A DNA stretch of 64,000 bases from Bullifex porci. GTDB lineage: Bacteria > Spirochaetota > Spirochaetia > Sphaerochaetales > Sphaerochaetaceae. Positions 22,169 through 44,113 of the stretch are shown here, piece after piece; the stretch's first letter is position 1, and every line of letters begins with the position of its first letter. Location of the stretch: positions 1-64,000 of the forward strand of contig NZ_VUNN01000008.1 in NCBI RefSeq assembly GCF_009695635.1. Direction: 5' to 3'. The position numbers and the translations under genes were made by a program. A model generated the notes under the pieces. That model saw only the letters and a list, made by a program, of their open reading frames with translations, was not told where the DNA came from and made no database searches.

Positions 22169-22184
22169 TGTTTCACGTGAAACA
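22169..22184. other. parS site 1
   Basis: TGTTTCACGTGAAACA, identical to the bacterial parS consensus. ParB is encoded 1.2 kb away. Confidence 0.97.
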
Positions 22185-22921: not shown

Positions 22922-22937
22922 TGTTTCACGTGAAACA
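22922..22937. other. parS site 2
   Basis: TGTTTCACGTGAAACA, a perfect parS palindrome, 753 bases after site 1. Confidence 0.97.
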
Positions 22938-23736: not shown

Positions 23737-23752
23737 TGTTTCACGTGAAACA
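23737..23752. other. parS site 3
   Basis: TGTTTCACGTGAAACA, a perfect parS palindrome, 815 bases after site 2. Confidence 0.97.
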
Positions 23753-26741: not shown

Positions 26742-28769
26742 TTATACATCAAGATTAGCTACATAAGTAGCATTCTGCTCGATAAAATCACGTCTTGGTT
26801 CTACATCCTCACCCATGAGCATTGAGAATACTCTATCTGCTTCCTCAGCATCCTCAAGATGAATCTTACTAATTAATCTTGTTTCTGGGTTCATAGTTGT
26901 TTCCCAAAGCTGCTCTGGGTTCATTTCACCAAGACCCTTATAACGTTGAATAGGTATCTTTGCTTCATCCATTCCAGCACAATTTTCTTCGATAATACGC
27001 TTCTTATCTGCTTCATCATAAGCATAGAAAATCTTCTTACCCAAAGTAATTTTGTATAGTGGAGGCATAGCAAAATAAATATATCCTGCTTCAATTAACG
27101 GTCTCATATATCTGAAGAAGAATGTGAGTAACAATGTCCTAATATGGGATCCATCGACATCGGCATCGGCCATAATAATGATTTTATGATATCGTGCCTT
27201 AGTAATATCGAAAGTTTGTTCACTATCCTCAATCTGGTTATTATACCTTGTTAAGCCTGCACCAATAGTAGAAATAACAGGCTGAAGCTTATCATTTCCA
27301 AGAACCTTATATTCTTGAGCCTTTTCTACATTGAGCATCTTACCCCAAAGAGGAAGAATAGCTTGGAATCTTCTATCTCTACCTTGCTTAGCAGAACCAC
27401 CAGCAGAATCACCCTCTACGATAAATACTTCGCACTTTGCAGGATCCTTTTCAGAGCAATCTGCGAGCTTACCTGGAAGGCCACCACCTTCGCTCTTTTT
27501 TCTAATTTGTTCACGAGCCTTTCTTGCAGCAATACGTCCAAGAGCTGCACTAATTGCTTTATCAAGTAATAGCTCAATATCACCAGGGAATTCATCAAAG
27601 TAGTTATTTAGCTTTTCATATACTAATGACTGCACAATAAATCTTACATTAGCATTACCAAGCTTCATCTTTGTTTGACCCTCAAATTGAGGATTAGGAA
27701 TCTTTATTGAAACAACACCTGTTAAGCCTTCTGAGATATCTGCTGATTCAAGCTTATCATTACCAAATTTCTTTAGCATTTTAGCATTCTTAGAAAGCTG
27801 GTTATTAATTGCCATTAGAATAGCAGTTTTAAATCCAGTTAAGTGTGTACCACCCTCACGTGTATTGATGTTATTTACAAATGAAAAAACCTTTTCATCG
27901 TATTTATCATTGTATTGAAGAGCTATTTCAACAACTACATCATCCTTTACACCTTCAAAGGATATTGGCTGGAATAATGTTTTCTTATACTCATTTAAAT
28001 AAGAAACAAACTCACTTAAGCCACCATCAGAGTGGAAGGATTCTGTTTTTATTTCTTCCTCACGCTTATCAACAATAGTAATTCTAATACCATGATTTAA
28101 GTAACTTAATTCCCTAAATCTATTAGAAAGTGTTTCATAGCTGAAGCTATTTTTCTCCATGACTTCAAAATCAGGAGAGAAGCTAATTGTTGTTCCATGC
28201 TTATCTGGATCACAATGTCCTATTATCTTCACATCTTCAACAGGAACGCCTCTATGGTATACTTGGTTATAAATATTACCATCTCTATAAACTGTAGCCT
28301 CTAAATAGCAGGAAAGAGCGTTTACACAAGAAACACCAACGCCATGGAGTCCTCCAGATACCTTATAAGCACCTTTTCCGAACTTACCACCTGCATTGAG
28401 CTTTGTTAAACATACTTCAAGAGTACTCTTACCAACCTGTGGGTGTATATCGACAGGAATACCTCTACCATTATCCTCTACAGTACAAACCTCACCATAT
28501 TCATTGTGGTCAAATGTAATTGTAATTTGATCACAGAATCCAGCCATAGCTTCATCAATACTATTATCAAGGACTTCATATACTAGATGGTGAAGACCAT
28601 CGATACCGGTAGTACCAATGTACATACCTGGGCGAAGACGTACATGCTCTAGTCCTTCTAGTACTTGAATTTCACTACTATCATACTCCTCAGACCCATT
28701 TACTACTGTATCAATATTTGGTTCCTCGGTAAGCATGGTTTGATCTTCGTTTTTCTTTGTTTCATCCAT
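26742..28769 (-). CDS. gyrB: DNA gyrase subunit B
   Basis: 675 residues. GHKL ATPase domain with [20 protein letters not shown] and [14 protein letters not shown], transducer domain, TOPRIM domain with [15 protein letters not shown] and the DADVDGSHI metal site, and a [11 protein letters not shown] motif near the C terminus. An N-terminal extension of about 30 polar residues precedes the ATPase domain. The ATG at 28769 has AAGGTGAG eight bases upstream. Divergent from dnaA; the genes switch strand here. Confidence 0.97.
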
Positions 28770-28879
28770 AAAATTGACTCACCTTATTTGAGAGCTTTTT
28801 ATAAAAAGCATAATACAATATATATAGTAACAATTTTTAAAGTTATCTTCAATAAGTCACCTTAATTTTTTATTCTTTA

Positions 28880-28900
28880 TATTTACATGTAATGTAAATA
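28880..28900. promoter_or_regulatory. Perfect palindrome in the gyrB-dnaA intergenic region
   Basis: Arms TATTTACAT and ATGTAAATA around GTA form a perfect 9-3-9 inverted repeat, about 110 bases from each start codon. It does not match a DnaA box. It looks like an operator for an unidentified dimeric regulator of gyrB and/or dnaA. Otherwise the 28770-29010 gap shows only AT-rich promoter-like sequence. Confidence 0.55.
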
Positions 28901-29010
28901 AATACTATATATATTGATACAGAAAACACAATATATACACAAAGAGTAATTAAAAACAACGATTGTGAATCATCAATCAATGTGATAAATTGAACAAGAA
29001 GGACTATCTT

Positions 29011-30348
29011 ATGCTAAAAGACTATTATCTTGAGGCCCTTGAAGAAACACAAAAAAGCTTACAAAAGGGTAAACAAATTTGGCTTACTAATGCTTCCTTT
29101 TTAAAAGAAGGAAATAATTCTATTACATTAGCTTTTCCATCAAAAATGTATCTTACAAACTTCAATAACTTTTGTAAGAGCGAATTACAATCAAAAATTG
29201 ATAGTCTAACTGGCTCACATATTGATATTGAAACAATCATTGGTGAAGCAGATTTTTCTTCTGTAGAGGAAGATGATAAAAAAGAGGTAGAAGAGGAAGA
29301 AATTCAGAGAAAAAATTCTTATTTAAACCCTATTTATACCTTTGAAAACTTTATTCCTTGTGAAAACACAAATTTTGCATATAACGCTGCTAAAGCTATT
29401 GCCATGAACCCAGGTATAAACTACAACCCATGCTTGATATATGGTGGTGTAGGCCTTGGAAAAACACACCTACTTCAATCTGTAGGAAACTACATTGAAA
29501 AGGAAAATCCAAAGAAAAAAGTTATTTATGTAACTGCTGAAACTTTTACTAATGACTTTATTAATTCATTACAGCAAAAGAACGCTTCCTCATTCAGAAT
29601 CAAATATAGAAAGGCTGATGTTCTCTTAATTGATGATATTCACTTTTTACAAGAAAAAATATCAACACAGGAAGAGCTTTTCCATACCTTTAATGACCTT
29701 TATGAAGCTAACAAACAGATTATTTTTACTTGTGATAGACCTATTAGTGAATTGAAGGGCTTTACAGATAGACTTAAATCTAGATTTACTAGAGGACTTA
29801 ATTTAAATCTTACTGCTCCTGATTATGAAACAAGAGTAGCAATATTAAAAAAGAAATGTGAAGCTCAAAATGTAAGAATCTTTGATTCTGTAATTTCATA
29901 CATGGCTGAAAACATAAAAACTAATGTTCGTGACCTTGAAGGATCACTTACTACATTAATAGCTTACTCTAAATTAATAAAAACTAATATTACTCTAGAA
30001 ATAGCCCAGGAACAGCTTAAGAACCTAATTTCTGCACCAATGGCTAGTGAACAGGACATTTCTATCAGTACAATTGTTAAAGAAGTTGCTTCCTATTACA
30101 ACGTAGAAATTAGTGAAATTAAAGGTAAAAAACGAACTGCAATCATTAAAGATGCAAGAAATTTGGCTATCTATTTAACAAGAAAAATTACTCAATATTC
30201 TACAACAGAAATTGGTAATTATTTTGATAGAGACCACTCTACAATTACCCACTCTATAGATAAGGTTGATCAGGAAAGAAAGCAAAATTCTGACATTGCT
30301 GCAGCATTAGATAGTCTAGAAAACACTATAAAATCAAAATCTAAATAA
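29011..30348 (+). CDS. dnaA: Chromosomal replication initiator DnaA
   Basis: 445 residues from the ATG at 29011, chosen because AGAAGG lies eight bases upstream; an in-frame TTG at 28990 has no ribosome site. Domain I (1-75), a short acidic linker domain II (EEDDKKEVEEEE), AAA+ domain III with Walker A GGVGLGKTH, Walker B VLLIDDIHF and sensor motifs, and domain IV with the DnaA-box binding signature DRDHSTITHSIDKV at the C terminus. Canonical DnaA proteins have R(D)HTTVxHA here, and the substitutions may go with the non-standard boxes (TTTTCAACA) found nearby. Confidence 0.97.
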   Translation: MLKDYYLEALEETQKSLQKGKQIWLTNASFLKEGNNSITLAFPSKMYLTNFNNFCKSELQSKIDSLTGSHIDIETIIGEADFSSVEEDDKKEVEEEEIQRKNSYLNPIYTFENFIPCENTNFAYNAAKAIAMNPGINYNPCLIYGGVGLGKTHLLQSVGNYIEKENPKKKVIYVTAETFTNDFINSLQQKNASSFRIKYRKADVLLIDDIHFLQEKISTQEELFHTFNDLYEANKQIIFTCDRPISELKGFTDRLKSRFTRGLNLNLTAPDYETRVAILKKKCEAQNVRIFDSVISYMAENIKTNVRDLEGSLTTLIAYSKLIKTNITLEIAQEQLKNLISAPMASEQDISISTIVKEVASYYNVEISEIKGKKRTAIIKDARNLAIYLTRKITQYSTTEIGNYFDRDHSTITHSIDKVDQERKQNSDIAAALDSLENTIKSKSK

Positions 30349-30814
30349 TTATTTTATTCAATTACTCTTCTAGTTAGGTTAATTTAATAAAAAAGTAGGG
30401 AAATTCTCTTCGATTTTTAATAGAACAAACAACTAAAATCAGAGAATCCCTACATCATACATAATTTATGATTATTACTTTTATAGCTGAAGACATCTTA
30501 CTTTTGTTGAAAACTTTGTTGATTTCTTGTTGATAACCTGTTTAAAACTATCTTAAAAGCTGTTGATAATTAAATGGTATTTTGTTGAAACTTTGGAAAA
30601 CTTTTTTAATTTCTAAAACTTTTCCTAGTTTTCAACAATCTTAAATTCTCTTTCAACAACTTTTTAGTAGAACTTTTCAACAATGTAATCTTATTCTATA
30701 TAATAAATAAAAGTAGTTTTCAACAATTAAAATCTTTATAATATTACTATTACTAAAATGAAATATACTTTATAATAACAGTATTAATAATCGAAGAGGA
30801 GTAGATATATATTT
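30349..30814. other. Probable oriC: DnaA-box array between dnaA and dnaN
   Basis: No gene. Nonamers related to the DnaA box occur as the complement (TGTTGAAAA or TGTTGATAA) at 30505-30513, 30528-30536, 30561-30569 and 30583-30591 (last base mismatched), then in direct orientation (TTTTCAACA) at 30629-30637, 30650-30658 (CTTTCAACA), 30674-30682 and 30717-30725. The array therefore switches orientation near 30610. Very AT-rich DNA at about 30685-30780 could be the unwinding element. Location beside dnaA and dnaN and the gene-strand switch nearby support oriC. Confidence 0.75.
30395..30453. other. Long imperfect hairpin between dnaA and dnaN
   Basis: GTAGGGA pairs with TCCCTAC, TTCTCT with AGAGAA and GATTTT with AAAATC, giving about 19 bp with two small bulges around a loop of some 15 bases. 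There is no T-run on either side, so it is not a standard terminator; it may still end dnaA transcripts or be an origin structure. Confidence 0.55.
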
Positions 30815-31921
30815 ATGAAATTCATTTGCCAAAAAGATACAATACTAAAAGAAGTAGAATATGCTAGTAGTTTTACAAGTCAGAGAAATTCTCTCTCTAT
30901 TTCTTCTAATATTTTGCTTGAAAACTATCAGAATATTCTCACTATTAAGGGTACTGATAATAAAATGGGTTTCATGACCTCTTTCCCTGTTTCAACAGAG
31001 GTCCCAGGCGCTACTACTGTTACTTGTGATAAGTTTCTTCAGGTTTTAAAATCACTTCCTTCAATGGATATCGAATTTTTAGAGGAAGATGGAAAATTAA
31101 AGATTACACCAATAAAGGATTCTAAGAGTATTAACTTTAATATTAGAACTATTCCTGCTGAAAACTTTCCACCTCTTTCTACTTTTGATGAAACTCAATT
31201 CTTCTCACTTTCTCAAAGAGATTTCTTTGATATGATAGATAAAACTTCGTTTGCAGTTGGTACAGATGAATCAAAATTCTTCTTAACTGGTGTTTACCTT
31301 GATAAGAAGGATGATGATGTTATAATGGTTGCAACTGATAGTAAGCGTCTTAGCTTTATTAGAAAGAAATTTGAACAAGATATTCCTGATTTTAAATCAG
31401 CAATCATTCCTGTTAAATTTTTACAGATTTTATCAAATATAGGTATTGGAGAGGGTCTTTTCTCCTTAATGATTACAGATACTCAAATTTTTGCCCAAAT
31501 TAATGGACATTTAATTTATTCATCATTAATAACAGGAACTTATCCTGCTTATCAGAGAGTAATACCAGAAAGCTTCAAATATGAATGTAAAGTTAAAGTA
31601 TCTGATATGCTGGAGGCTTTAAACAGAGTATCTATCTTCGTTGAGAATAATTCTAAGAAGGTTTTCCTAGAGCTTAAGGAAGATGGTATTATGGCTAGTG
31701 GTGAAACTAGTGATGTAGGTGATGCAAAGGAAATTATTTCTTGTGAATATTCTGGTGAGGATGTAAATATTACATTTAATAATGCATTCTTAGTAACATC
31801 TCTTAAGAAAATAGATTCAGAATACTTTAAGCTATGCTTTAATTCTGCAACAACAGCTATGGAAATAGTTCCTGATCCAGAGAAGGATTATATCTTCATA
31901 ATAATGCCAATGCATGGTTAA
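30815..31921 (+). CDS. dnaN: DNA polymerase III subunit beta (sliding clamp)
   Basis: 368 residues, normal length for the three-domain clamp. Recognisable segments are the N-terminal MKFICQKDTILKEV opening, TVTCDKFLQVLKSLP, and the C-terminal EYFKLCFNS...FIIMPM ending, where the hydrophobic peptide-binding pocket forms. It encircles DNA as a dimer and holds the polymerase. GAGGAG lies upstream of the ATG. recF begins 2 bases after the stop. Confidence 0.97.
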   Translation: MKFICQKDTILKEVEYASSFTSQRNSLSISSNILLENYQNILTIKGTDNKMGFMTSFPVSTEVPGATTVTCDKFLQVLKSLPSMDIEFLEEDGKLKITPIKDSKSINFNIRTIPAENFPPLSTFDETQFFSLSQRDFFDMIDKTSFAVGTDESKFFLTGVYLDKKDDDVIMVATDSKRLSFIRKKFEQDIPDFKSAIIPVKFLQILSNIGIGEGLFSLMITDTQIFAQINGHLIYSSLITGTYPAYQRVIPESFKYECKVKVSDMLEALNRVSIFVENNSKKVFLELKEDGIMASGETSDVGDAKEIISCEYSGEDVNITFNNAFLVTSLKKIDSEYFKLCFNSATTAMEIVPDPEKDYIFIIMPMHG

Positions 31922-31923
31922 TT

Positions 31924-33003
31924 ATGAGATTTAAATCAATAAAATATTATAATTTTAGAAATATAGATAATGGTGTCGTCCTTTTTAATAAGGACGATAT
32001 CATTCTTGAAGGGATAAATGGACAAGGAAAAACAAATATCCTTGAATCTGTGTATACCCTATGCTATGGAAATTCATTTAGAACGCAGCTATCAAAGGAA
32101 ATGATAAAGCATGGTGAAAGAGTAATGAATCTTACAGCTGTGCTTGAGGATGAAGAAGATAGCTATGATGTTTCATACTCTCTTGATGGTAATAAAAGAA
32201 AGATTTTATTAAATGGAAAGGAAGTAAAGGATAGAAAGGATTTAATATATTTATTTCCTTGCATTGTATTTATTCATGAGGATATAGATTTTATTAAGGG
32301 TGAGCCTGAGATGAGAAGAAAATTCTTTGATCAAACTCTTAGTATGTATGACCCTATCTATTTAAATTACATAAGAGCATATAGAAATGTCTTAGCACAA
32401 AGAAATGCAGCGATAAAAAATAATCAAACAACACTACTAGATATATATGATAAAAAGCTTGCTACCTATGGTTTTGAAATCATGAATAGTAGAAGAAATA
32501 TGGTTTATGAATTCAATGAGATATTTCCAATTCTTTATAAAAAAATATCAGGGACTAATAAAAATATAACAGTTTCATATAAATCCTCTTGGGATGAATT
32601 AAATGATGTTTCTTCAATAATAGAGCACTTAAAGGAAACTCATGAAAGAGATATAAGGCTACTTACAACAACATCTGGTATTCATCGTGATAGGTTTACT
32701 GTTAATGATGAGAATGGTCCTTTAGTTGTAACAGGCTCAACAGGTCAAATAAGATTAGCTTCTCTTTTATTTAGAATTGCAGAGGCAAGAATATTTAAAG
32801 AAAAAACAGGTAAAGATCCTATTTTATTATTAGATGATGTTCTTTTAGAGCTTGATGATATAAAAAGAGCAAGATTTTTAGAGGAACTCACCTCTTATAG
32901 TCAGGCTTTTTATACTTTTCTTCCACGAGAAAGCTATTTTAATGAAAGAAAAGATGATCTTTTAGATTATAATGTTGTTGAAGGTAAACTATATGAAGTA
33001 TGA
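31924..33003 (+). CDS. recF: DNA replication and repair protein RecF
   Basis: 359 residues. SMC-like ATPase: Walker A GINGQGKTN (about residues 33-41), signature region TGSTGQIRLASLLF, and Walker B DPILLLDDVLLELD. Loads RecA at gaps with RecO/RecR. Position directly after dnaN is the classic order. The DUF721 gene starts inside its last codons. Confidence 0.96.
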   Translation: MRFKSIKYYNFRNIDNGVVLFNKDDIILEGINGQGKTNILESVYTLCYGNSFRTQLSKEMIKHGERVMNLTAVLEDEEDSYDVSYSLDGNKRKILLNGKEVKDRKDLIYLFPCIVFIHEDIDFIKGEPEMRRKFFDQTLSMYDPIYLNYIRAYRNVLAQRNAAIKNNQTTLLDIYDKKLATYGFEIMNSRRNMVYEFNEIFPILYKKISGTNKNITVSYKSSWDELNDVSSIIEHLKETHERDIRLLTTTSGIHRDRFTVNDENGPLVVTGSTGQIRLASLLFRIAEARIFKEKTGKDPILLLDDVLLELDDIKRARFLEELTSYSQAFYTFLPRESYFNERKDDLLDYNVVEGKLYEV

Positions 33004-33277
33004 GGTTCCAATAGGTTATTACGTAAAAAGCTTTCAAAAGAAGGTTGAAGAGAGTCTTGGAGAGGAAGTAGTAGTTTTTAAATGGAAGGAAATAGTTGGT
33101 CCAGCTTTATATCCTCATGTAATGTTAGACACTATTGATGTTGAAAATTTAGAGGTAAGTATAGACCATCCTGCATATAAAAGTGCCTTTATTTTGAGGC
33201 AGAATTTAATTTTAAATAAGATAAAGGAATTATTTCCTAGATATGATATAAAAAATGTCAAGATACACCTAGTGTAG
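32993..33277 (+). CDS. DUF721 (DciA-like) protein
   Basis: 94 residues from the ATG at 32993, which has GAAGG eight bases upstream and overlaps recF by 11 bases. It carries the DUF721 core: VFKWKEIVGPALYPHV, then VSIDHPAYKSAFILRQNLILNKIKELF. The W-x-x-I/V-V-G segment is the family hallmark. Family member DciA loads the replicative helicase DnaB in bacteria lacking DnaC, and this location between recF and rpmH fits a replication role. Confidence 0.85.
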   Translation: MKYEVPIGYYVKSFQKKVEESLGEEVVVFKWKEIVGPALYPHVMLDTIDVENLEVSIDHPAYKSAFILRQNLILNKIKELFPRYDIKNVKIHLV

Positions 33278-33280
33278 ATA

Positions 33281-33309
33281 TTGACCATTTTTCTTATCTC
33301 ATATAAAGT
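33281..33309 (+). promoter_or_regulatory. Candidate promoter of rpmH-rnpA
   Basis: TTGACC (33281-33286), 17-base spacer, TAAAGT (33304-33309), giving a leader of about 65 bases with TTGGAG before the rpmH ATG. Confidence 0.4.
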
Positions 33310-33380
33310 TACTAATCGGACATTTTTGTCTGTGAGTTATAAAATCTGCGCTTTAATGCGAAAAATATTGGAGTATATTC

Positions 33381-33548
33381 ATGAGTTACAAAGGAAAAAG
33401 AACCTATCAGCCAAGTAAAGTAAAGAGAAATAGAACTTTTGGTTTCCGTGCACGCATGGCTACTAAGGGTGGTCGTTTAGTTCTTGCTCGCCGCAGAGCA
33501 AAGGGCAGACACAGCTTAACAGTTTCTGATGAGAAGAAGCCTTTCTAA
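33381..33548 (+). CDS. rpmH: 50S ribosomal protein L34
   Basis: 55 residues. It reads [20 protein letters not shown] then [24 protein letters not shown], a complete L34 core. The N terminus differs slightly from the usual MKRTYQP by a SYKG insertion, and the C terminus continues with [11 protein letters not shown] beyond the usual end, within which rnpA begins. TTGGAG lies about eight bases before the ATG. Confidence 0.96.
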
Positions 33549-33885
33549 GACAGAGATAATTCGTAAGAAGCAGGATATAGATCGCATTTTCAAGCAAGGA
33601 AAAAATATTTCTTGTATGGGAATGCGATTAGCCTTTTTAGAGAACAACTGTAATTTCGATCGTTTCATCATTATTCCTGCAAAGCATTATGGCAACGCAG
33701 TCGAAAGAAATAAATTAAGGCGAAGATGTAAGGAATTATTTAGGTTGTATCCTAATAGGGTAATGCTAGATGCTTCAGAAAATAGAAAAAGTCATGATAT
33801 CGCCTTAGTAGTATATCCTGGAAAGGTTCTCAGTTTTTCTTTGCTTGAGTCTAAATTTTACTCTCTTTTAGACAGAATAAATTGA
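33529..33885 (+). CDS. rnpA: Ribonuclease P protein component
   Basis: 118 residues. Opening [25 protein letters not shown] is typical (split here over the first 25 positions), followed by the RNA-binding motif [16 protein letters not shown] (the RNR motif). It pairs with the RNase P RNA to mature tRNA 5' ends; the RNA gene is not in the window. Its ATG lies 20 bases inside rpmH in another frame and lacks a clear Shine-Dalgarno, so it probably depends on translation of rpmH. Confidence 0.94.
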
Positions 33886-33967
33886 GAATTGTTCCTTTTC
33901 CTCATCTTGCAGAGTTCATATTCCTATCTTTCCTATTATTCTACGGGCCATCATCAAAGGAGATATA

Positions 33968-35719
33968 ATGGATAGGAATACTATCATTGCGATTATTTTA
34001 TCTGTAATAGTAATTACAGTTGGTATGACAGTACAAACTGTATTTTTCCCAATGGAAAATACTATTACTCAAACTGAGACAACAACTGAAGAGGTTGTAC
34101 CAGTAGAGAATATAAGTTCAATAATTACAGAACCAGTTATTTCAAAAAATCAAGTAACAGATACATCGCCATTTACAGTAGAAACAGATGCACTATCAGT
34201 TACTTTTGATCCATATGGTGCTTCTGTTAGCAGTATTAAGATGAAGAAGCATCTTGATACATCAAAGGAACCTGTAGAAATTCTTTTAAAGGATGGAAAT
34301 AGGGGTAATGCATTCTTAATGTATCAATCAAATGATACTTCAAAGCCAATTACAGAGGCCTTTAGTCATAGCATTGAAGAAAGAGATGATTTAATTTTAG
34401 TAATATTCTCACAGGTATTTGAACAAAGTGGTAGAGAATATGAAATTATTAAGAAATATGCATTTGCTAAGGATGAGGAGTATCTTTTCCAAATTGCAGT
34501 AACATTAAATTCTCTAGATGGCAATGCTCTTCCATTTACTGTATATACAATTGGTGTTGAGCCACAGGTTGGACCAGAGTTTGAAAGCTTAAATGGTAAC
34601 TATGACTATAGAAGAATGTATTACAAGCTTAGTGATAAAAACAGTAAGAAAAATGTAAGCTTTAAAAATGGTGTAGCAACAGTAAATGAAAGTGTTTCAT
34701 GGGTAGCTTTAGCAAGTAAGTACTTTACTATTATGGGTATTCCAGCAAGCGAAGCTGATTATTCTGTTAAATTTACACAAAATACTGAGGAAAAGCAGGA
34801 GAACTCCTTCTACTTAACAAGAAATGGTATTTCCTCATCTAGTGTTACAGATCTTTATAGCTTCTATTGTGGCCCAAAGCTTACTTCTTACTTAAATAAG
34901 TATGATATTGCTAATGATAATACCTTTAAGCTTACAAACCTACACCTTGCAAAGGTAATGGATAGCTCTACATGGCTTGGATGGCTTGAGACAATTCTTA
35001 AGTGGGTATTAACATTAATTTATAAGGTTATTCCAAACTATGGTGTAGCTATTATTATCCTCACACTATTAATTAAGCTAATGCTACAACCAATAAGCAA
35101 GAAGGGTATGGAATCAACAGCAAAGATGTCTGCACTAAATCCTAAGCTAGAAGAGCTTAAGGCTAAGTATGCTGATGATCCAAATGCACTTAATGCAGCA
35201 ATGGCTAAGCTATATAAGGAAGAAGGTATTAACCCAATGGGCTCATGTCTTCCAATGCTTATCCAGTTCCCTGTATTCATTGCACTTTACGGACTATTAA
35301 ATAACCACTTCGAGCTTCGTGGTGCTATGTTTATTCCTGGTTGGATCCCTGATCTTTCAATTCCAGATACAGTATTTACATTAGGATTTAACATTCCTTT
35401 AATTGGTAATCAAATTCACTTATTACCTATCATCTATACTGTTTCAATGATCTTCTCTATGAAGATTACTCAATCTGGTGCTACAGATTCTTCTCAGGCA
35501 GGAATGATGAACTTTATGACATATGGAATGCCTATAATATTCTTCTTTGTATTGTATAATGCACCATCAGGATTGCTAGTATATTGGACTGTAACTAATG
35601 CTATTTCTATCATTCAGCAAATCTATGTGAATGCAAAGAAAAAGAAGCAATTTGAAGAAGAGATGATTACTAAAAATGAAAGTAAAAATGTTAAGTTCAA
35701 AAGCAAAAAGAGAAAGTAA
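33968..35719 (+). CDS. yidC: Membrane protein insertase YidC
   Basis: 583 residues, Gram-negative type. N-terminal helix (5-27), large periplasmic P1 domain (about 60-340), then the 60 kDa inner-membrane-protein domain with WLGWLETILKWVL, NYGVAIIILTLLIKLML (region with the conserved Arg/Lys groove), ARRK-like cytoplasmic loop ALNPKLEELKAKYADDP, and CLPMLIQFPVFIALYGLL. Basic C-terminal tail. The gap after rnpA (33886-33967) contains no yidD. AAAGGAG precedes the ATG. jag follows by 14 bases. Confidence 0.96.
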   Translation: MDRNTIIAIILSVIVITVGMTVQTVFFPMENTITQTETTTEEVVPVENISSIITEPVISKNQVTDTSPFTVETDALSVTFDPYGASVSSIKMKKHLDTSKEPVEILLKDGNRGNAFLMYQSNDTSKPITEAFSHSIEERDDLILVIFSQVFEQSGREYEIIKKYAFAKDEEYLFQIAVTLNSLDGNALPFTVYTIGVEPQVGPEFESLNGNYDYRRMYYKLSDKNSKKNVSFKNGVATVNESVSWVALASKYFTIMGIPASEADYSVKFTQNTEEKQENSFYLTRNGISSSSVTDLYSFYCGPKLTSYLNKYDIANDNTFKLTNLHLAKVMDSSTWLGWLETILKWVLTLIYKVIPNYGVAIIILTLLIKLMLQPISKKGMESTAKMSALNPKLEELKAKYADDPNALNAAMAKLYKEEGINPMGSCLPMLIQFPVFIALYGLLNNHFELRGAMFIPGWIPDLSIPDTVFTLGFNIPLIGNQIHLLPIIYTVSMIFSMKITQSGATDSSQAGMMNFMTYGMPIIFFFVLYNAPSGLLVYWTVTNAISIIQQIYVNAKKKKQFEEEMITKNESKNVKFKSKKRK

Positions 35720-35733
35720 AAAAGGATTATATA

Positions 35734-36396
35734 ATGATAAGAGAATTTGAAGGAAAGACTGAGCAAGAAGCCATAGATATGGCTATTAGCGAGTTAGGTC
35801 TAGAAAGAGATGATTTTGATGTTGAAATCATCGATCAACATAAAAAAACACTATTTAAAAGAGGTAGTGTAAAAATAAGAGTACATATTCCTGAGCCTGT
35901 ATCAGAGGAAACCTATTCAAATGAGGTTCTTTCAAGTGAAAGCGAGAATGAAGAAAAGATTCTTGAGTTCATTCAAAACTTAATTACCAAGATGGGCTAT
36001 GAATGTAAGGTCAATATTAATTTTAGAAAGGATCTTAAGCTTGGCTTTAATATTGATAGTCCTAATTCTTCAATTATTATTGGTAGAAAGGGTAAGAATC
36101 TTGATGCTATTCAGCTTCTTGCAAATGTATATGCAGCAAAGCTTGATGAGGACTATAAAATCATTATTGATAGTGAAGACTATCGTATGAGGCATGAAGA
36201 GTATATTGTGAGAAATGCTTTTAAGAATGCTGAATATGTTAGAAAGACAGGAAAGAGTAAGTTACTCGAACCAATGAATCCTTTCGAACGAAGATTAATT
36301 CATACAGCATTAAATGATTTTAATGGTGTAGAGACAAAGAGCGAAGGTGATGGTCTTTATAAGCAGGTTAGAATTATTCCTGTTAAAAACAAATAA
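35734..36396 (+). CDS. jag: RNA-binding protein Jag/KhpB
   Basis: 220 residues. Jag-N domain (REFEGKTEQEAIDMAISELGL, residues 2-22 region) with KTLFKRG, a KH domain including SSIIIGRKGKNLDAIQLL (about 110-128), and an R3H domain with RNAFKNAEYVRKTGKS and PMNPFERRLIHTAL near the end. In other bacteria it binds many mRNAs with KhpA and affects cell elongation and division. Partner of yidC in a two-gene unit; followed by a terminator. Confidence 0.94.
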   Translation: MIREFEGKTEQEAIDMAISELGLERDDFDVEIIDQHKKTLFKRGSVKIRVHIPEPVSEETYSNEVLSSESENEEKILEFIQNLITKMGYECKVNINFRKDLKLGFNIDSPNSSIIIGRKGKNLDAIQLLANVYAAKLDEDYKIIIDSEDYRMRHEEYIVRNAFKNAEYVRKTGKSKLLEPMNPFERRLIHTALNDFNGVETKSEGDGLYKQVRIIPVKNK

Positions 36397-36403
36397 AGGA
36401 TAG

Positions 36404-36428
36404 TACCGATCATTTGATCGGTATTTTT
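36404..36428 (+). terminator. Terminator of yidC-jag
   Basis: TACCGATC-ATTT-GATCGGTA followed by TTTTT. Confidence 0.92.
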
Positions 36429-36435
36429 ATAATTA

Positions 36436-36467
36436 TTGACATCTAAAAAGTTTTAATAATATTATTA
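36436..36467 (+). promoter_or_regulatory. Promoter and probable PerR/Fur box of the perR-rubrerythrin operon
   Basis: TTGACA (36436-36441), 18-base spacer, TATTAT (36460-36465). The perfect palindrome TAATAATATTATTA (36454-36467) covers the -10 box and resembles AT-rich PerR boxes; a second AATAATTATT repeat follows. Autoregulation is inferred. Confidence 0.6.
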
Positions 36468-36492
36468 GTAATAATTATTGATAAGGATTTAT

Positions 36493-36906
36493 ATGAAGGA
36501 TATAAGAAATACAAAGCAGAGAGAAGAAGTATTAAATGCAGTATATACCCTCTGTAATCATCCGCGAGCAGAGGATGTGTATAATTGTGTCATTGAAAAT
36601 AATCCTAATATCAGTAAAGGTACAGTTTATAGGAATTTAAACCTACTATCTGAGCTTGATGAAATAAGTAAAATTCAAATGCCTGGAAATGAACCAGATA
36701 GATTCGATGTTAGAATAGATGAGCACCACCATGCATATTGTAGGGTTTGTAAAAAGCTTTTTGATATCGATTTAGATGATTCATTAAAGGTTAATTGTCA
36801 TCTACAAAGGATGAATTTCTTAGTAGAAAAGAGTCAATTATTCCTTACTGGTATTTGTAAAGAATGTTATGAGAAGGAGAAGAAAAATGGAATTAAAGGG
36901 AAGTAA
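36493..36906 (+). CDS. Fur family regulator, PerR-like
   Basis: 137 residues from the ATG at 36493, which has AAGGA five bases upstream. Fur-type winged helix ([23 protein letters not shown], then [19 protein letters not shown]) and a dimerisation domain with metal ligands [13 protein letters not shown], a regulatory HHHxxC segment, and zinc-site CxxC pairs CRVC and CKEC. PerR members sense peroxide by iron-catalysed His oxidation. Assignment as PerR rests on the downstream rubrerythrin, whose start overlaps this gene by 20 bases. Confidence 0.85.
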
Positions 36907-37429
36907 GACAGAAAAAAACCTACAATCAGCATTTGCAGGTGAGAGCCAGGCAAGAAATAAGTACACATACTTTGCTTCAAAGGCTAAAAAAGATGGTTAT
37001 GTTCAGATTGCAAAAATCTTTGAAGAAACAGCTGATAACGAGAAAGAGCATGCTAAGATTTGGTTCAAGCTCTTACAGGAAAATGGTCAGATTGCTTCTA
37101 CAGCAGAGAACTTAAAAGAAGCTGCAGCTGGTGAAAACTATGAGTGGACAGATATGTATGCAACATTCGCAAAGGAAGCAGATGAGGAAGGCTTTACTCA
37201 GATCGCTGCATTATTTAGAAGTGTTGCTAAAATCGAAGCTGAGCATGAAAAGAGATATCTTGAGCTTCTTAGCAATGTAGAAAATGGTCTTGTTTTCTCA
37301 AGGGATAATGAAATGGTTTGGAAGTGTTCTAACTGTGGTCACATTGTTATTGGAAAAAAAGCTCCAGAGGTATGTCCTGTTTGTGCACATCCACAATCAT
37401 ATTTTGAGATTGCAGCAAAGAACTGGTAA
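36887..37429 (+). CDS. rbr: Rubrerythrin
   Basis: 180 residues from ATG 36887, with GAAGGAGA about 8 bases upstream. Diiron four-helix bundle with [15 protein letters not shown], the second ExxH in [13 protein letters not shown], and [15 protein letters not shown], followed by a rubredoxin domain whose Cys4 iron site is CSNCGH and CPVCAH. It reduces hydrogen peroxide in anaerobes with electrons via rubredoxin and NAD(P)H. Coupled to the PerR-like gene, so peroxide-inducible expression is likely. Confidence 0.96.
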
Positions 37430-37448
37430 TAATTAGTTTCTTAAGTAG

Positions 37449-37483
37449 GAGAGTATTTGATGATATCAGATACTCTCTTTTTT
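37449..37483 (+). terminator. Terminator of perR-rubrerythrin
   Basis: GAGAGTATTTGAT and ATCAGATACTCTC form a 13-bp stem with one U-G pair, followed by six Ts. Confidence 0.93.
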
Positions 37484-37532
37484 ATTTACAATTAGGAATT
37501 AAATATTATATTTATTTCTAAGGAGTAAAGTA

Positions 37533-37811
37533 ATGGCAGAATATTATTCAAATGAACCAGACAATAGAAGAAAAGGAGATGAAGGAACTCTTCCATTAAT
37601 TTTAGGAATTCTTTCAATTGTATTTGCCTTCACCTTTTCTAGATTGGTAGGTTTTATTTTAGGTATCATTGCAATCGTTAAAGGAAATCAATACAGACAT
37701 ATAGATAATGATGCTAAGGTAGGATTTATCTGTGGCATAGTAGGATTATGTATTTCCTCTATTGCACTGATGTTCATCTTTTTTATATTTAGCATCTTTA
37801 TTTGGCTTTAA
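37533..37811 (+). CDS. Small DUF4190-like membrane protein
   Basis: 92 residues. A polar N terminus (about 18 residues) precedes two or three membrane segments (LPLILGILSIVFAF, LVGFILGIIAIV, GFICGIVGLCISSIALMFIF) with the glycine-rich G-I-L-x-I-V pattern and KGNQYRH loop seen in DUF4190 proteins. Function unknown. GGAG lies before the ATG. Its stop overlaps the end of the convergent kinase gene. Confidence 0.75.
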   Translation: MAEYYSNEPDNRRKGDEGTLPLILGILSIVFAFTFSRLVGFILGIIAIVKGNQYRHIDNDAKVGFICGIVGLCISSIALMFIFFIFSIFIWL

Positions 37812-38800
37812 AGGTAAGTTTTTTCTATATAGCTTCTTAATTCAGAGCTTTTTTCCTTTGTGAATTGAGCACCAATTTGACTTATTATTTCTCCTGCAAG
37901 GAAGGAAGCTATCATACCAGCTGTTTTGCTATCACAGCCTTTAGCTATACCATATAAAAAGCCAGCAGCATATGTATCTCCTGCTCCTGTAGTATCAACA
38001 GGAGTAGCTGATCCTTGTACATCAATTTTTGTTATAACTCTATTATCTGAAACGTAGGAGCCTTTCTTTCCATTCTTTACAATAGCAATATTTGCAAGCT
38101 TTCCCATGCTCTTACAGCATTCATATGCATCATAGTTATCAAAAAGATATCTAGCCTCTTCACTATTTGCAAATACAATATCACAGTAGTTTGTAATTAA
38201 ATCTAAGAAATCAGCTCTATAGCGACCAACAGCAAAAGGATCTGCAATATCAAAGGCAACCTTAATGTTATTCTCTTTGCAAAAAGCTAAAACCTTTCTA
38301 ATAGCTCTCTTTTGAGGTTCTGTATCCCACATATATCCAGTGAAATAGAATATATCTGAGCCTTTAACACTATCTAAATTAACATTAGGAGCATCAAAGC
38401 ACTTATTTGCGCCTAAGAATGTATTCATTGTTCTCTCTTTATCATCTGTTAGCATGATAATAGAGGTACCTGTAGGCTCATCATATGAGATTAAATCATC
38501 CTTTACGCCTATTTCCTTTAATTTAGCTCTATAAACGTTTGCAAGCTCATCCTTACCAACTCCACCTGCTAGGGTAGTTGGAATACCAAGAGAACAAAGA
38601 GTTACCATGGTATTTGGACAGGAACCACCAGGTGAATAAACAAGCTGCTTACTCTTAAGATAATCAATTAATTCCCTATGTCTTTGCTTATCAATTAAGT
38701 GCATAGTGCCTTTATATAAATTAAGGGCATTTAAATCATCGTTAGTAATATTTGATAAAATATCAATTAGTGGGTTTCCAATACCATAAATCTTGCTCAT
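37808..38800 (-). CDS. PfkB family sugar/adenosine kinase (adenosine-kinase-like)
   Basis: 330 residues from the ATG at 38800. The PfkB signatures are SPGGSCPNTM (signature 1 region) and DTTGAGDTYAAGF (signature 2 with the catalytic Asp). GNPLIDI at the N terminus, followed by the long N-terminal lid segment, is typical of the adenosine kinase subgroup. It would phosphorylate adenosine or a ribosyl/fructosyl substrate with ATP. The start was chosen because homology begins there and a promoter's -10 box ends 7 bases upstream, with no Shine-Dalgarno (leaderless type). Confidence 0.85.
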   Translation of the reverse strand: MSKIYGIGNPLIDILSNITNDDLNALNLYKGTMHLIDKQRHRELIDYLKSKQLVYSPGGSCPNTMVTLCSLGIPTTLAGGVGKDELANVYRAKLKEIGVKDDLISYDEPTGTSIIMLTDDKERTMNTFLGANKCFDAPNVNLDSVKGSDIFYFTGYMWDTEPQKRAIRKVLAFCKENNIKVAFDIADPFAVGRYRADFLDLITNYCDIVFANSEEARYLFDNYDAYECCKSMGKLANIAIVKNGKKGSYVSDNRVITKIDVQGSATPVDTTGAGDTYAAGFLYGIAKGCDSKTAGMIASFLAGEIISQIGAQFTKEKSSELRSYIEKTYL

Positions 38801-38807
38801 GATGAAA

Positions 38808-38836
38808 AGTATAAAACAGGTCGAGTTATAAAACAA
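38808..38836 (-). promoter_or_regulatory. Leaderless-type promoter of the adenosine-kinase-like gene
   Basis: Minus strand: TTGTTT (38831-38836), 17-base spacer, TATACT (38808-38813), 7 bases before the ATG. Confidence 0.6.
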
Positions 38837-38881
38837 CGACTTACCAATGCAAAAGAAAAGGATACATGATAAACTTTATCT

Positions 38882-40165
38882 ATGAGTCAGTATGTTATAA
38901 AGGGTGGAAAGCCTTTAAAGGGTGAAATTAATATAAGTGGTAATAAGAATGCAGCACTTCCGTGTATTGCTGCTGCTTTATTAACAGATGAAAAAGTAAC
39001 CTTGAGAAATGTTCCTAACATACTAGATGTATCTGTAATGCTATCTCTAACAGAGCAGCTGGGAACAGATGTTAAGAGAGTTGATAAAAATACAGTTGAG
39101 TTAAATTCAAATGTTAAGTTTAATGGCTTAGATCCAGCATTAGTTGATAGTGTTAGAGGATCAATACTATTTTCTGGACCACTTCTAGCTAGAGGTGAAA
39201 AGGTTATAATTCCACCTCCAGGAGGAGATGTAATAGGCTTAAGACGATTAGATACTCACTTTTTAGGATTATCCTCATTAGGTGTAGATTGCGCTGTAGA
39301 TGAAAGAGGCTATTTAATATTAACTCCTCCAGTAAGATTGATGGGAGCCTCAATATTTTTAGATGAAGCATCTGTAACAGCTACAGAGAATGTAATTATG
39401 GCAGCAGCCTTAGCCTTTGGAGAGAGTACTATTTACAATGCTGCTTGTGAGCCACATGTTCAAAATCTATGTGAAATGCTTAATGAGATGGGAAGTGAAA
39501 TTGAAGGAATAGGTTCAAACTTCTTAAAAATAAAGGGTAAGGAAAGACTATTTGGAACAGACCATACTATAGTTAGTGATCATATGGAGACAGGATCCTT
39601 TATTGGATTAGCTGCTGCTACAGATAGCGAGCTTTTATTAAAGCATGTTGATACTAGATTTTTAAGACCTCTACAGCTTGGCTTTGATAAGCTAGGTATT
39701 ACCTTTGAGATATTTAAAGATAGCGTATACATCCCTAAAAATCAAAAAAAGGTGATGGCAAAAACTTATTCTGGAGTAACAAATAAATTAGATGATGCTC
39801 CATGGCCAGGCTTTCCTGCAGATTTACTATCAATAATGACAGTAACTGCAACACAAATGACAGGCTCTCTACTTATTCATGAGAAGATGTTTGAATCACG
39901 ACTATATTTTGTTGATTATTTAATCAGAATGGGTGCAGATATTATTCTTTGTGATCCTCATAGAGCTGTTGTAAATGGAAAGAGTAGATTAAGACCTTGT
40001 AATTTAGTAAGTCCAGATGTAAGAGCAGGAATGGCTATGGTAATTGCTGCTTTAGCAACAGATGGAAAGTGTACAATAGAAAGAATAGATCAAATAGAAC
40101 GTGGATATGAAGCTTTATTAGAAAAGCTAGTATCTATTGGTGGTGATATCAAACGAGAAGAATAA
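38882..40165 (+). CDS. murA: UDP-N-acetylglucosamine 1-carboxyvinyltransferase (Asp-type MurA)
   Basis: 427 residues. EPSP-synthase fold with GEINISGNKNAALP (Lys 22), the active-site loop PPGGDVIGLRRLD, and DDAPWPGFPADL near residue 305. It transfers enolpyruvate from PEP to UDP-GlcNAc, the first committed step of peptidoglycan synthesis in the cytosol. The loop residue equal to E. coli Cys115 is Asp 116, the change that gives natural fosfomycin resistance in Borrelia and Mycobacterium. No clear Shine-Dalgarno; TAAACT ends six bases before the ATG but without a good -35. Confidence 0.96.
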   Translation: MSQYVIKGGKPLKGEINISGNKNAALPCIAAALLTDEKVTLRNVPNILDVSVMLSLTEQLGTDVKRVDKNTVELNSNVKFNGLDPALVDSVRGSILFSGPLLARGEKVIIPPPGGDVIGLRRLDTHFLGLSSLGVDCAVDERGYLILTPPVRLMGASIFLDEASVTATENVIMAAALAFGESTIYNAACEPHVQNLCEMLNEMGSEIEGIGSNFLKIKGKERLFGTDHTIVSDHMETGSFIGLAAATDSELLLKHVDTRFLRPLQLGFDKLGITFEIFKDSVYIPKNQKKVMAKTYSGVTNKLDDAPWPGFPADLLSIMTVTATQMTGSLLIHEKMFESRLYFVDYLIRMGADIILCDPHRAVVNGKSRLRPCNLVSPDVRAGMAMVIAALATDGKCTIERIDQIERGYEALLEKLVSIGGDIKREE

Positions 40166-40666
40166 AATCAAATTAATTCCATTTAGAATATATTTATCCG
40201 TTTGAAAAATCAAAAATTGGAAAAACTTGATCATTGCTTTTACTTAGAGCTTTAAGTATAAAAAAACACTAGATATAGGTTTTCCACAAGTTTTCAACAA
40301 GTTTTCCACAAAGGCGTTGAAAAGGTTGTTGAAAACATTAAAATAACAAAATTTATTCGTTTATTAATACAGCTTTAAAATAAATGTTAATAATATATAT
40401 TGTAAAGAATTAATTAAAATGGAAGGTTATAAAAAATACCCAAAAATTATATAATTTTTGCATTGTTTATATTGTTTAAAAGTTTTCAACAGGACCAATT
40501 TTTAACAGAGTTTTCAACAGGTTTTCAACAAGTAAAACTTTTGATGTGCAAAAGTAGTTAAATACTAGTTATTGTTGAAATTAGATATGGGGAAAACTAT
40601 TTTTTCAAATAGTAATCCCCAAAATTGTATGCAATATACTTACATATCTATAGTGTAGTTTTTATA
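40166..40666. other. Second DnaA-box-like cluster (possible origin part or DnaA titration site)
   Basis: No gene in this 500-base gap. TTTTCCACA occurs at 40280-40288 and 40302-40310; TTTTCAACA at 40291-40299, 40483-40491, 40511-40519 and 40522-40530; the complement TGTTGAAAA at 40327-40335, CGTTGAAAA at 40315-40323 and TGTTGAAAT at 40573-40581. The same nonamers form the array between dnaA and dnaN. AT-rich DNA separates the two subclusters (about 40340-40480). Several boxes repeat at 11-base spacing, one helical turn. Confidence 0.7.
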
Positions 40667-41761
40667 TTAGTAAAAGTACTCTGGTAGAGCATAGATAAAT
40701 TTATCACTATTCCTAGAGATGTAATGAACATAATCTACTACACTAAATAGTTGTCTTGCATTTCCATTCCATTGATTATCAAGAAAGAATGAATAATCAT
40801 CGATATTCCTTTCATAGTTCTGTTTGTCTTCCCAGTATTTTACTAAAAGAGGAATATCTTCCTTTCTCTCTCTTAATGGCTTGATATAAATTATGTGAGA
40901 GCTAATTCTATGGTAAAGGTCTTCTCTTAGCTTTCCTTCTTGTATCAAAGAAATTGGTGACTTATTAGAAATCGTAATAAGCTTACAATTAGAATGATTT
41001 TGAATGAAAGAATAATCACCAATCTTTCTATACTTACCATCCTGAATAAATCTCAATAATTGAGATTGAGTTGGTTGTGAAAGATTTTCAATTTCATCTA
41101 AAACTAAGTATTTACCATCAGCATGCTCAACATATCCAGTAATATCGTGGTCAGCACCAGTAAATGATCCCTTCTTTGCACCAAAAATAGCCGATTCACT
41201 TAATGTAGAGTTTAGAAGACCGCAATCTACATAAACTGCATTATCTTCTCCTCCTGTTATGTAACGAGATATTATCTCTTTACCTGTACCAGTCTCTCCA
41301 CATATGAAGATAGGCTTGCCAGATGCAGCATAGGCTCTTGCCTGCTCCTTTACTTGGATTGCATTTTCAGAGATACCAATAAAGTAATCATCAATATCAT
41401 ACTTTTTCTTATTTACTATTTTTGAAGGTTGATAGTTAATAGCGCTCAAAAATTCACCCTCTGCAAAAGGCTTTCTAAGATGTATGCAATTTCCAATCTT
41501 TAAAGTGATAGAATTATTCATCATCTTAGGTGAACAAAGAAAAACTATCTTTCTATCTTTGTCATCAAATAGTGCCGGTAATAATTGTGTGTATAATTCG
41601 CTTGAATCGATATCCACAACAATTATACTTCCGAATGCAGATTTATTTATCTCGGTGAGAATATTTTCACGAGATTTAATAAATCTACAGTTTGTCTGTA
41701 ATGCTTTGTTAATGATTGTTCTGTAATGAACATTATTAGAAAATAATAAACAGTCATCCAT
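40667..41761 (-). CDS. AAA+ sigma54-activator-like protein without a DNA-binding domain
   Basis: 364 residues. Residues 1-115 look like a degenerate response-regulator receiver (IIVVDID, HLRKPF). The AAA+ domain (about 120-360) has Walker A GETGTGKE, the sigma54-contact loop as GSFTGAD instead of GAFTGA, Walker B YLVLDEI, and REDLYHRI. The protein ends straight after the AAA+ domain, with no Fis-type helix-turn-helix, as in a few solution-acting activators. No rpoN or -24/-12 promoter was seen in the window. AAGGA precedes the ATG. It is transcribed toward the DnaA-box cluster; the target is unknown. Confidence 0.8.
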   Translation of the reverse strand: MDDCLLFSNNVHYRTIINKALQTNCRFIKSRENILTEINKSAFGSIIVVDIDSSELYTQLLPALFDDKDRKIVFLCSPKMMNNSITLKIGNCIHLRKPFAEGEFLSAINYQPSKIVNKKKYDIDDYFIGISENAIQVKEQARAYAASGKPIFICGETGTGKEIISRYITGGEDNAVYVDCGLLNSTLSESAIFGAKKGSFTGADHDITGYVEHADGKYLVLDEIENLSQPTQSQLLRFIQDGKYRKIGDYSFIQNHSNCKLITISNKSPISLIQEGKLREDLYHRISSHIIYIKPLRERKEDIPLLVKYWEDKQNYERNIDDYSFFLDNQWNGNARQLFSVVDYVHYISRNSDKFIYALPEYFY

Positions 41762-41935
41762 CTTTTTTATCCTTTTTTATTAAATTTTTTTTTTATGAAT
41801 GATGTTTAAGAGCTCCCAAACTTTAAAAAAATCCCCCCGAATATATTTTCAGAATAAAATCACTTTTACATTCTAGCAAGTAAATTTTTCGAATTAGTAA
41901 AAAAAATAGTAAAAATAACAAAAATAATCAAAAAT

Positions 41936-42673
41936 CTATGACCAAATTGTTTCTATAGCGCCAACAGCAAAGATTCCAGCGGTTTCTGCTCTTAATATAT
42001 TGGTTGATAGAAGAACAGGAGTAGCTCCTAAGCCTTCTAAAGCCTCGCACTCCTCGTCAGAGATACCACCCTCACTACCAATGATTATAGAAACCTGCTT
42101 TTCCTCAATTAGTGATAATGCCTTTGAAAGTGAAATTGTATCACCTCGGCTGCTTTGATGCAAAAAGAGAACCTTATATGGAGAATCCTTTACAACCTCA
42201 CTAATATCGATAGTTCTTATAGGTTTAACTTTAGTTTTTGAACCACTTTGCTGTACAGCTTCTCTTTGAATATCATATAGTCTTTGCTTATCATGGTCGT
42301 TAAATGTTTTCTCTTGGCAAAAGGTAGAGGTAATAAAAATAGTCTCCTCTACACCTGCCTCAGTTAGCATTCTAATAATTTGTTCATTCTTTTTACCCTT
42401 ACATATAGCCTGGTAAACTCGAATTGGTGGAAGCTTTTCACGATAGGAAGAAAAATGATCAAGTAGAGTTGCTTCTATATCCTCGCAGGGAGAAATAGTT
42501 AACATATCTTCAGATACTATAGTTGCACTATAATAATTATCTTTAGTGTCCCTACAAGTGAAAACATCACCAATTTTAAGACGTAATACCTTAATTAGGT
42601 AATCCTTTTCTCTTTTTCGTAGGATATAATCCTTTTCTCCTGAATATGCTTTATCGAGTATAAATATTCTCAT
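41936..42673 (-). CDS. rsmE: 16S rRNA (uracil-1498-N3)-methyltransferase RsmE
   Basis: 245 residues. N-terminal PUA-like domain (1-75) and a SPOUT methyltransferase domain with the knot motifs SIIIGSEGGISDEECE and LSTNILRAETAG (S-adenosylmethionine site). It methylates U1498 in the decoding region of 16S rRNA. It starts one base after the S41 protease stop, with AGAAGG upstream inside that gene, so both form one operon. The 41762-41935 gap downstream of it holds AT-rich sequence only. Confidence 0.94.
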   Translation of the reverse strand: MRIFILDKAYSGEKDYILRKREKDYLIKVLRLKIGDVFTCRDTKDNYYSATIVSEDMLTISPCEDIEATLLDHFSSYREKLPPIRVYQAICKGKKNEQIIRMLTEAGVEETIFITSTFCQEKTFNDHDKQRLYDIQREAVQQSGSKTKVKPIRTIDISEVVKDSPYKVLFLHQSSRGDTISLSKALSLIEEKQVSIIIGSEGGISDEECEALEGLGATPVLLSTNILRAETAGIFAVGAIETIWS

Positions 42674-44113
42674 TTACTCTACCTTCTCTAAGAAGCTTAT
42701 AGCTTCAATAAGAGCACTATCATAAATTGTATCTACCTTAGGTCGTTCAGAATAAGGTAATGAGTAAATATATTCATTTCTAATTAGCAGTTTTAATGCA
42801 AGCTCAGGGAAATCAATATCAGAGTGCAGCATTACATAGTTATCCATATTTTCTTTAGTATATTCAGGATGAGCTTTAATATATGCACTAATATCATCTC
42901 TATTATCTTCAATAAACTTGTAATAAGCCTTTATCTCTTCATCTGTATATACATGATCTTCAATTAGAATATCTGGCTCAATTCCCTTTTCGTGGATATT
43001 ATCTCCATTTGGTGTTAGGTAATATGCTGTTGTAAATTTAATATATCCATTTTTCCACATTGCAGAATCTTGAACGATACCCTTACCAAATGTCTTTGAG
43101 CCAATAACTGTAGCTCTATTATTATCCTTTAGAGCGGCAGTTAATATTTCACTTGCAGATGCTGTTCCTCCATTTGTTAAAATAACTATAGGGATGTTTA
43201 ATACCTTTCTTGTATCATTTGATGCAATTGCAGAGTAGTTTTGCTTACCAGAGCCCTCCTTATGCTGAATTGACATAATTGTCGCTCCATCTGGAAGGAA
43301 GAAATTAGCTATCATAGTAGCTGAGTCAACAATACCGCCACCATTATTTCTTAAATCTATGATTAGCCCCTTAATATTATTATTCATTAGGTTTCTTAAA
43401 TCCTCACTAAATAATTCATGAGTTTTCTGAGTAAAGGTAGAAATACTTATATAACCAATATTAGTTTTATCAATAATTAATGATGTTGTATTAGGTGTTG
43501 TTACTTCTTCAGGATATAGAGTGACATCAAATACAGCATTACCTCTATTAATTGTTAAGGTAATTGGCTCTCCTTTTTTACCTCTAATTAATTTTGATGC
43601 CTCAGTAGCGGTTAAATCATATACAGTTTCACCATTTACATGAGAAATTAAGTCTCCAGAACGAATACCCGCACGATCTGCAGGACCACCTGGAAATGGT
43701 GCAATGATTTCAACCATATAGGTTTCTTTTTTATCCCAATCAATATATGAAGGGGAGTATTTAGTTAGATAGGTTCCAATTCCAACATAGGTTCCTGTAA
43801 TATCCTCTGTAAACTCCTCGCTTTCCTCTTCGGTTATATATTCAGAGTAAGGGTCATTAAGTGCTTTAAAAAGAGCCTTAGTAAGTTCCTCTTCCACCTT
43901 ATCGATATCTATGTCATAAAGAAAGTTTTGATTTAAATATTGATAAAGAGTATTTAATCCTAGCAGAGTTTCTGAAATATTTGTTACTTGAACCTGAGCT
44001 AGAGGTGAAGAATAACTTGATGATTTGCTAGTGCTCTCATTGCTAGCACCTGCAAATAGTAGAGTAGCAGATATTAATATTATAATAAGTGATAATAAAG
44101 TCTTTTTTAGCAT
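42674..44113 (-). CDS. C-terminal processing protease (S41 family, CtpA-like)
   Basis: 479 residues. Signal peptide (about 1-22), helical N-terminal region, PDZ domain (about 110-190, with GGPADRAGIRSGDLI), and a tail-specific protease domain with LIIDLRNNGGG, the catalytic Ser in NGGTASASEI and the catalytic Lys in FGKGIVQ. It degrades or trims envelope proteins in the periplasm from the C terminus. The start ATG lacks a Shine-Dalgarno; TACAAT ends 7 bases upstream. Operon with rsmE; divergent from lgt. Confidence 0.92.
   Translation of the reverse strand: MLKKTLLSLIIILISATLLFAGASNESTSKSSSYSSPLAQVQVTNISETLLGLNTLYQYLNQNFLYDIDIDKVEEELTKALFKALNDPYSEYITEEESEEFTEDITGTYVGIGTYLTKYSPSYIDWDKKETYMVEIIAPFPGGPADRAGIRSGDLISHVNGETVYDLTATEASKLIRGKKGEPITLTINRGNAVFDVTLYPEEVTTPNTTSLIIDKTNIGYISISTFTQKTHELFSEDLRNLMNNNIKGLIIDLRNNGGGIVDSATMIANFFLPDGATIMSIQHKEGSGKQNYSAIASNDTRKVLNIPIVILTNGGTASASEILTAALKDNNRATVIGSKTFGKGIVQDSAMWKNGYIKFTTAYYLTPNGDNIHEKGIEPDILIEDHVYTDEEIKAYYKFIEDNRDDISAYIKAHPEYTKENMDNYVMLHSDIDFPELALKLLIRNEYIYSLPYSERPKVDTIYDSALIEAISFLEKVE

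Follow-up and report, generated by a model that had tools for sequence, protein, structure and literature searches.

We found a noncoding element in Bullifex porci in which two tandem pairs of DnaA boxes, each with an 11-bp step and both in the same orientation, are separated by about 210 mostly AT-rich bases, and this core architecture recurs downstream of murA in most of the genomes examined from a family inferred to be the Sphaerochaetaceae. On balance, we lean towards the view that positions 40280-40530 of the window (the whole 64,000-nucleotide stretch of DNA analysed here) form a dedicated extra-origin control site, at which a loop-forming complex of DnaA would titrate or inactivate the protein.

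Architecture of the element

An initial annotation of the window had described a second DnaA-box array about 10 kb from the dnaA-dnaN array, and this second array is real. The cluster of nine nonamers reported after murA is also present, but the exact count is seven, the figure of nine including near-matches. The two box groups, the 11-base steps, the AT-rich middle and the gene-free gap are all as first described. The features are collected in Table 1.

Table 1. Positions in the window of the element, its neighbouring genes and the dnaA-dnaN array
Feature	Position	Strand	Remarks
dnaA	28990..30348	+	only DnaA-like match in the genome
dnaA-dnaN box array, presumed oriC	30505..30725	left boxes -, right boxes +	
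murA	38882..40165	+	ends 115 bp before the element
Gene-free gap holding the element	40166-40666		between murA and the AAA+ gene
Whole element, 251 bp	40280-40530		two tandem box pairs and AT-rich middle
Exact TTTTC(A/C)ACA boxes in the gap (n = 7)	40280, 40291, 40302, 40327, 40483, 40511, 40522	+, +, +, -, +, +, +	
One-mismatch TTTTC(A/C)ACA copies in the gap	40315, 40473, 40499, 40545, 40573	-, -, +, -, -	
Left DnaA-box group	40280..40310	+	11-bp steps: TTTTCCACA 40280, TTTTCAACA 40291, TTTTCCACA 40302
Conserved pair within the left group	40280-40299	+	
Opposed boxes of the left group	40315..40335	-	TTTTCAACG 40315 (one mismatch), TTTTCAACA 40327
AT-rich middle between the box groups	40340..40480		14% GC
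Central conserved motif	40385..40397		TGTTAA... in the window, TGTCAAnTtaTT in many relatives; from alignment profiles
TTATATAA motif	40447..40454		
Extra boxes preceding the right pair	40483..40507	+	TTTTCAACA 40483, TTTTTAACA 40499 (one mismatch)
Right conserved pair	40511..40530	+	TTTTCAACAGGTTTTCAACA; starts 231 bp past the left-pair start
Outlying one-mismatch box	40573..40581	-	ATTTCAACA
AAA+ gene, sigma-54-interaction domain, 364 aa	40667..41761	-	3' end facing the element

We tested the clustering of the boxes by pattern searches of the genome. Exact TTTTC(A/C)ACA boxes number 164 in the 2.42 Mb draft genome, or one per 15 kb, compared with 53 for a reversed-pattern control. With seven boxes in 251 bp, the array is far denser than the genome as a whole, and a Poisson estimate puts the chance of at least seven boxes in such a length far below 1e-10. 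The array is thus a DnaA-box cluster far above background and away from oriC. Pairs of TTTTCMACA boxes at most 30 bases apart exist in the murA-AAA+ gap and nowhere else in the genome. When TTATC-type boxes are allowed too, pairs are also found in the dnaA-dnaN gap and upstream of an nrdD-like gene. A tandem pair TTATCAACAAGTTTTCCACA lies at L047 1501-1520 (G000:C2:68450-68469), upstream of an ORF that by eye resembles nrdD (anaerobic ribonucleotide reductase), and a similar pair is found in G010. This pair possibly serves DnaA control of nucleotide supply.

Conservation and spacing

We then investigated the relatives, which are mostly draft metagenome assemblies. The element follows murA in 55 of the 59 family genomes having sequence downstream of murA; in one of the other four (G379), it is found on another contig than the murA match. 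The strict element pattern exists in 61 of 395 genomes of the class, the reversed pattern in none of the 395, and members of other families of the class carry the element as well. A scan of named genomes with the element pattern returned mostly spirochaetes among the matches listed. The matches outside the spirochaetes often adjoin dnaA and may be ordinary origins. At two loci of distant spirochaetes, L156 (G090) and L228, the two-pair pattern lies in the gyrB-dnaA gap and not near murA, so the two-pair arrangement may also occur within origins.

In the window's genus, a tandem pair TTTTCCACAAGTTTTCAACA is followed 230 or 231 bases on, start to start, by TTTTCAACAGGTTTTCAACA, and the other family members have pairs based on TTATCCACA. 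Comparison of species within the window's genus gives 89-100% identity for the pairs, 43-48% for the intervening DNA and 27% for the right flank, the last being close to random. The spacing of 230-231 is kept in 14 genomes of this genus despite the poorly conserved DNA between the pairs. Opposed boxes are common in the window's genus and are not conserved outside this genus and genus g16. The middle of the element, at 14% GC in the window, reaches about 45% GC in relatives.

The pair spacings fall into three classes about one helical turn apart (211-213, 221-224 and 229-233 bp), of which 229-233 is usual and 221-224 is found in some genera. The TTATATAA motif lies 166-169 bp past the left-pair start in most of the family, and about 64 bp from the right pair, or about 54 bp in the short-spacing genera. 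In the short class, about 10 bp are lost solely between TTATATAA and the right pair, the left part staying at 166-169 bp. When helical phase was tested with 12 values, each for a genus or a family, P was ~0.002, a value that ignores shared ancestry and uses a range set post hoc, and the clustering of the spacings in helical phase is suggestive only. The conserved central motif (TGTCAAnTtaTT) is found about 104-106 bp past the left-pair start. The E. coli site datA depends on IHF. We considered the central motif as an IHF site, but the match to the consensus WATCAANNNNTTR is no better there than elsewhere in AT-rich sequence. The genome carries a single HU/IHF-family gene.

Link to DnaA

The boxes are mainly TTTTC(A/C)ACA in both the element and the dnaA-dnaN gap of the window's genus, and TTATCCACA in both places in most other genera examined. 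The box type changes in step at the two sites, as is expected when one protein reads both, and this points to DnaA as the ligand. In the window, four exact copies of TTTTCAACA lie in the dnaA-dnaN gap, along with TTATCAACA and further boxes that have one mismatch, in agreement with the early observation that the same nonamers exist between dnaA and dnaN. The accompanying remark that the element box TTTTCCACA is closer to the classical TTATCCACA is not supported, because the two TTATCAACA copies of the dnaA-dnaN gap are equally close (one mismatch each). The automatic call of this gap gave few or no boxes in G001, G005, G009 and G012 of the window's genus, where the gap was shortened by a predicted ORF or read at fixed length; these four genomes have box pairs about 1 kb beyond dnaA. 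In the 200 kb surrounding the G017 origin, every exact TTATCCACA lies either in the dnaA-dnaN gap or in the element and its immediate vicinity; G397 and G303 have only one or two further exact copies besides those two places.

A similarity search of the genome found no second DnaA- or Hda-like match, and this single DnaA-family match suggests that there is no Hda, with the reservation that a divergent Hda could escape such a search. An absence of Hda would leave room for the element to matter.

Neighbouring genes

The window has gyrA and gyrB leftward and dnaA, dnaN, recF and others rightward; some of its gene names, beyond those confirmed by search, were read from the sequences. The Pfam hits of the AAA+ protein include no DNA-binding domain. 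Several further families of the class also have a related AAA+ gene next to the element. In the closed genome G036, the element has remained with murA and an AAA+ gene, although rsmE-ctpA is located elsewhere and dnaA lies at a distance of 28 kb. The g16 genomes listed gave no MurA match at E <= 1e-100. This genus (for example, G030) may have lost peptidoglycan synthesis, its relatives having MurA. Two strict pairs 229-231 bp apart exist in 22 of 48 g16 genomes, and at the loci examined the g16 element is flanked by rbr or pfkB on one side and by the AAA+ gene on the other. The element of G005 has, as a whole, the opposite orientation with respect to murA.

A promoter scan of the element found promoter-like sites at background level only. 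TGTCAA (the reverse of TTGACA) was considered as part of a minus-strand promoter and rejected: by eye there is no -10 at the right distance, and the scan is at background. No terminator was found in the gap, and no known RNA family in 28000-44000. The folding z-score of the gap (-2.6) fits opposed boxes pairing with each other and is not taken as a sign of an RNA.

Alternative explanations

The initial annotation had raised a bipartite origin. DnaA at the element would then contact DnaA at dnaA-dnaN and help opening, or the AT-rich middle would itself unwind. As in the bipartite origins of Helicobacter pylori and Bacillus subtilis, there are two box groups with AT-rich DNA, which the arrays flank, and the element lies within about 10-30 kb of dnaA wherever both are on one contig. 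The fitted GC-skew switch, which marks an oriC, has an intermediate position, with dnaA-dnaN on one side and the element on the other, in three closed genomes from genus g3 (G017, G303 and G397); this placement is ambiguous and leaves the proposal some support. However, the cumulative skew of the window reaches its minimum near 30 kb, which is the location of dnaA-dnaN, and in G036, the clearest of the closed genomes, the minimum is at 2 kb, again by dnaA-dnaN, with the element 28 kb off at 30.4 kb. The skew check suggested at the outset thus places the minimum at dnaA-dnaN in both cases and not at the element, which is probably not the main origin. In addition, the dnaA-dnaN gap has boxes and AT-rich DNA of its own, and the two parts of the H. 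pylori and B. subtilis origins lie close by on either side of dnaA, compared with a distance of 10-28 kb here. We consider a distant second part of the origin unlikely. A site for segregation or chromosome organisation, for example a centromere bound by ParB, would also be at home near the origin, but we give this reading almost no credence. Three perfect parS sequences (TGTTTCACGTGAAACA) are found immediately past gyrA at 22169-23752, where the DNA is very AT-rich (21-23% GC); with up to 3 mismatches allowed, chance would give 0.25. Four closed relatives likewise have their parS group just beyond gyrA, on the other side of dnaA, and the element has no parS. The group at 22169-23752 is likely the chromosome centromere.

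In E. coli, the DARS sites are distant from oriC. Like DARS1 and DARS2, the element is a noncoding DnaA-box cluster outside oriC with conserved spacing, and in the window's genus each half, with two tandem boxes and an opposed third, loosely recalls the DARS core. A site of this kind would exchange ADP for ATP on DnaA and promote initiation. The DARS core is a single three-box unit in which box I is opposed to boxes II and III (PMC5742627), whereas the element has two distant half-sites, tandem pairs of the same orientation about 230 bp apart, and opposed boxes in some genera only. Given also its closeness to oriC, we think a DARS-like activity quite improbable. Of the titrating or reactivating site first suggested, the titrating or DnaA-converting part stays the best reading, and the reactivating part is disfavoured by a box arrangement that does not fit DARS. 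Another early suggestion was DnaA control of murA or the AAA+ gene. Both genes adjoin the element, and the two-box site upstream of the nrdD-like gene indicates that DnaA may act on transcription elsewhere. Yet in the window the two genes converge on the gap, so that the promoter of neither lies there, promoter-like sites are at background, and the element outlives a detectable murA in g16 and is inverted in G005. An operator for either gene is therefore very unlikely.

Comparison with known DnaA-binding sites

The element resembles datA of E. coli, whose minimal region is 262 bp with a spacing that matters (PMC5742627) and which is conserved near oriC (PMC4585315). It is about 250 bp long, noncoding, composed of separated DnaA-box groups with conserved spacing, and located after gene ends close to oriC. 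Its box order and phylum differ, the genome has one HU/IHF-family gene, the central motif is not IHF-specific, and any datA-like activity is a prediction from sequence; we do not claim that it is a datA. B. subtilis also has DnaA-box clusters (DBCs) beyond its origin, and removal of all six leads to early initiation (PMC5295017). However, those are several dispersed clusters, while here a single syntenic element has a fixed spacing. A Streptomyces DnaA-box cluster outside the origin is reported to restrain initiation (Smulczyk-Krawczyszyn 2006, as cited in PMC5742627), which is a likeness in position and in the effect proposed here.

Proposed mechanism and significance

In the reading that we prefer, a looped and inhibitory DnaA complex, each tandem pair would be occupied by adjacent DnaA molecules. 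The pairs are about 22 helical turns apart, and the AT-rich, readily bent DNA between them would bring both groups of DnaA together on one face, in a loop. The looped complex would remove or inactivate DnaA, by titration or by a datA-type stimulated ATP hydrolysis. At only about 10-30 kb from oriC, the element would be copied very soon after initiation, its capacity would be doubled, and a second start would be held back. The sequences directly show the boxes, their conservation and fixed spacing, the closeness to dnaA and the matched change of box type; that DnaA binds, that the DNA loops and that the effect is negative are inferences. Titration, hydrolysis and reactivation would give the same picture, of which a negative effect is the preferred interpretation.

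In the openly accessible literature searched, we found no description of the element. The same literature includes Borrelia DnaA binding studies, and we found in it no spirochaete equivalent of datA or DARS. A broader proposal, which we put forward tentatively and regard as doubtful, is that the family uses a single helically phased, looped DnaA element, without IHF or a detected Hda, as its main replication timer, or else that the element forms the distal half of an origin whose two parts are 10-30 kb apart.

The control that limits initiation to once per cycle is little studied in spirochaetes, and a conserved, precisely spaced, single-copy element makes this question testable. The natural spacing variants across species are a ready test of helical phasing. 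At stake is whether regulation by a looped DnaA site close to the origin has arisen outside the proteobacteria.
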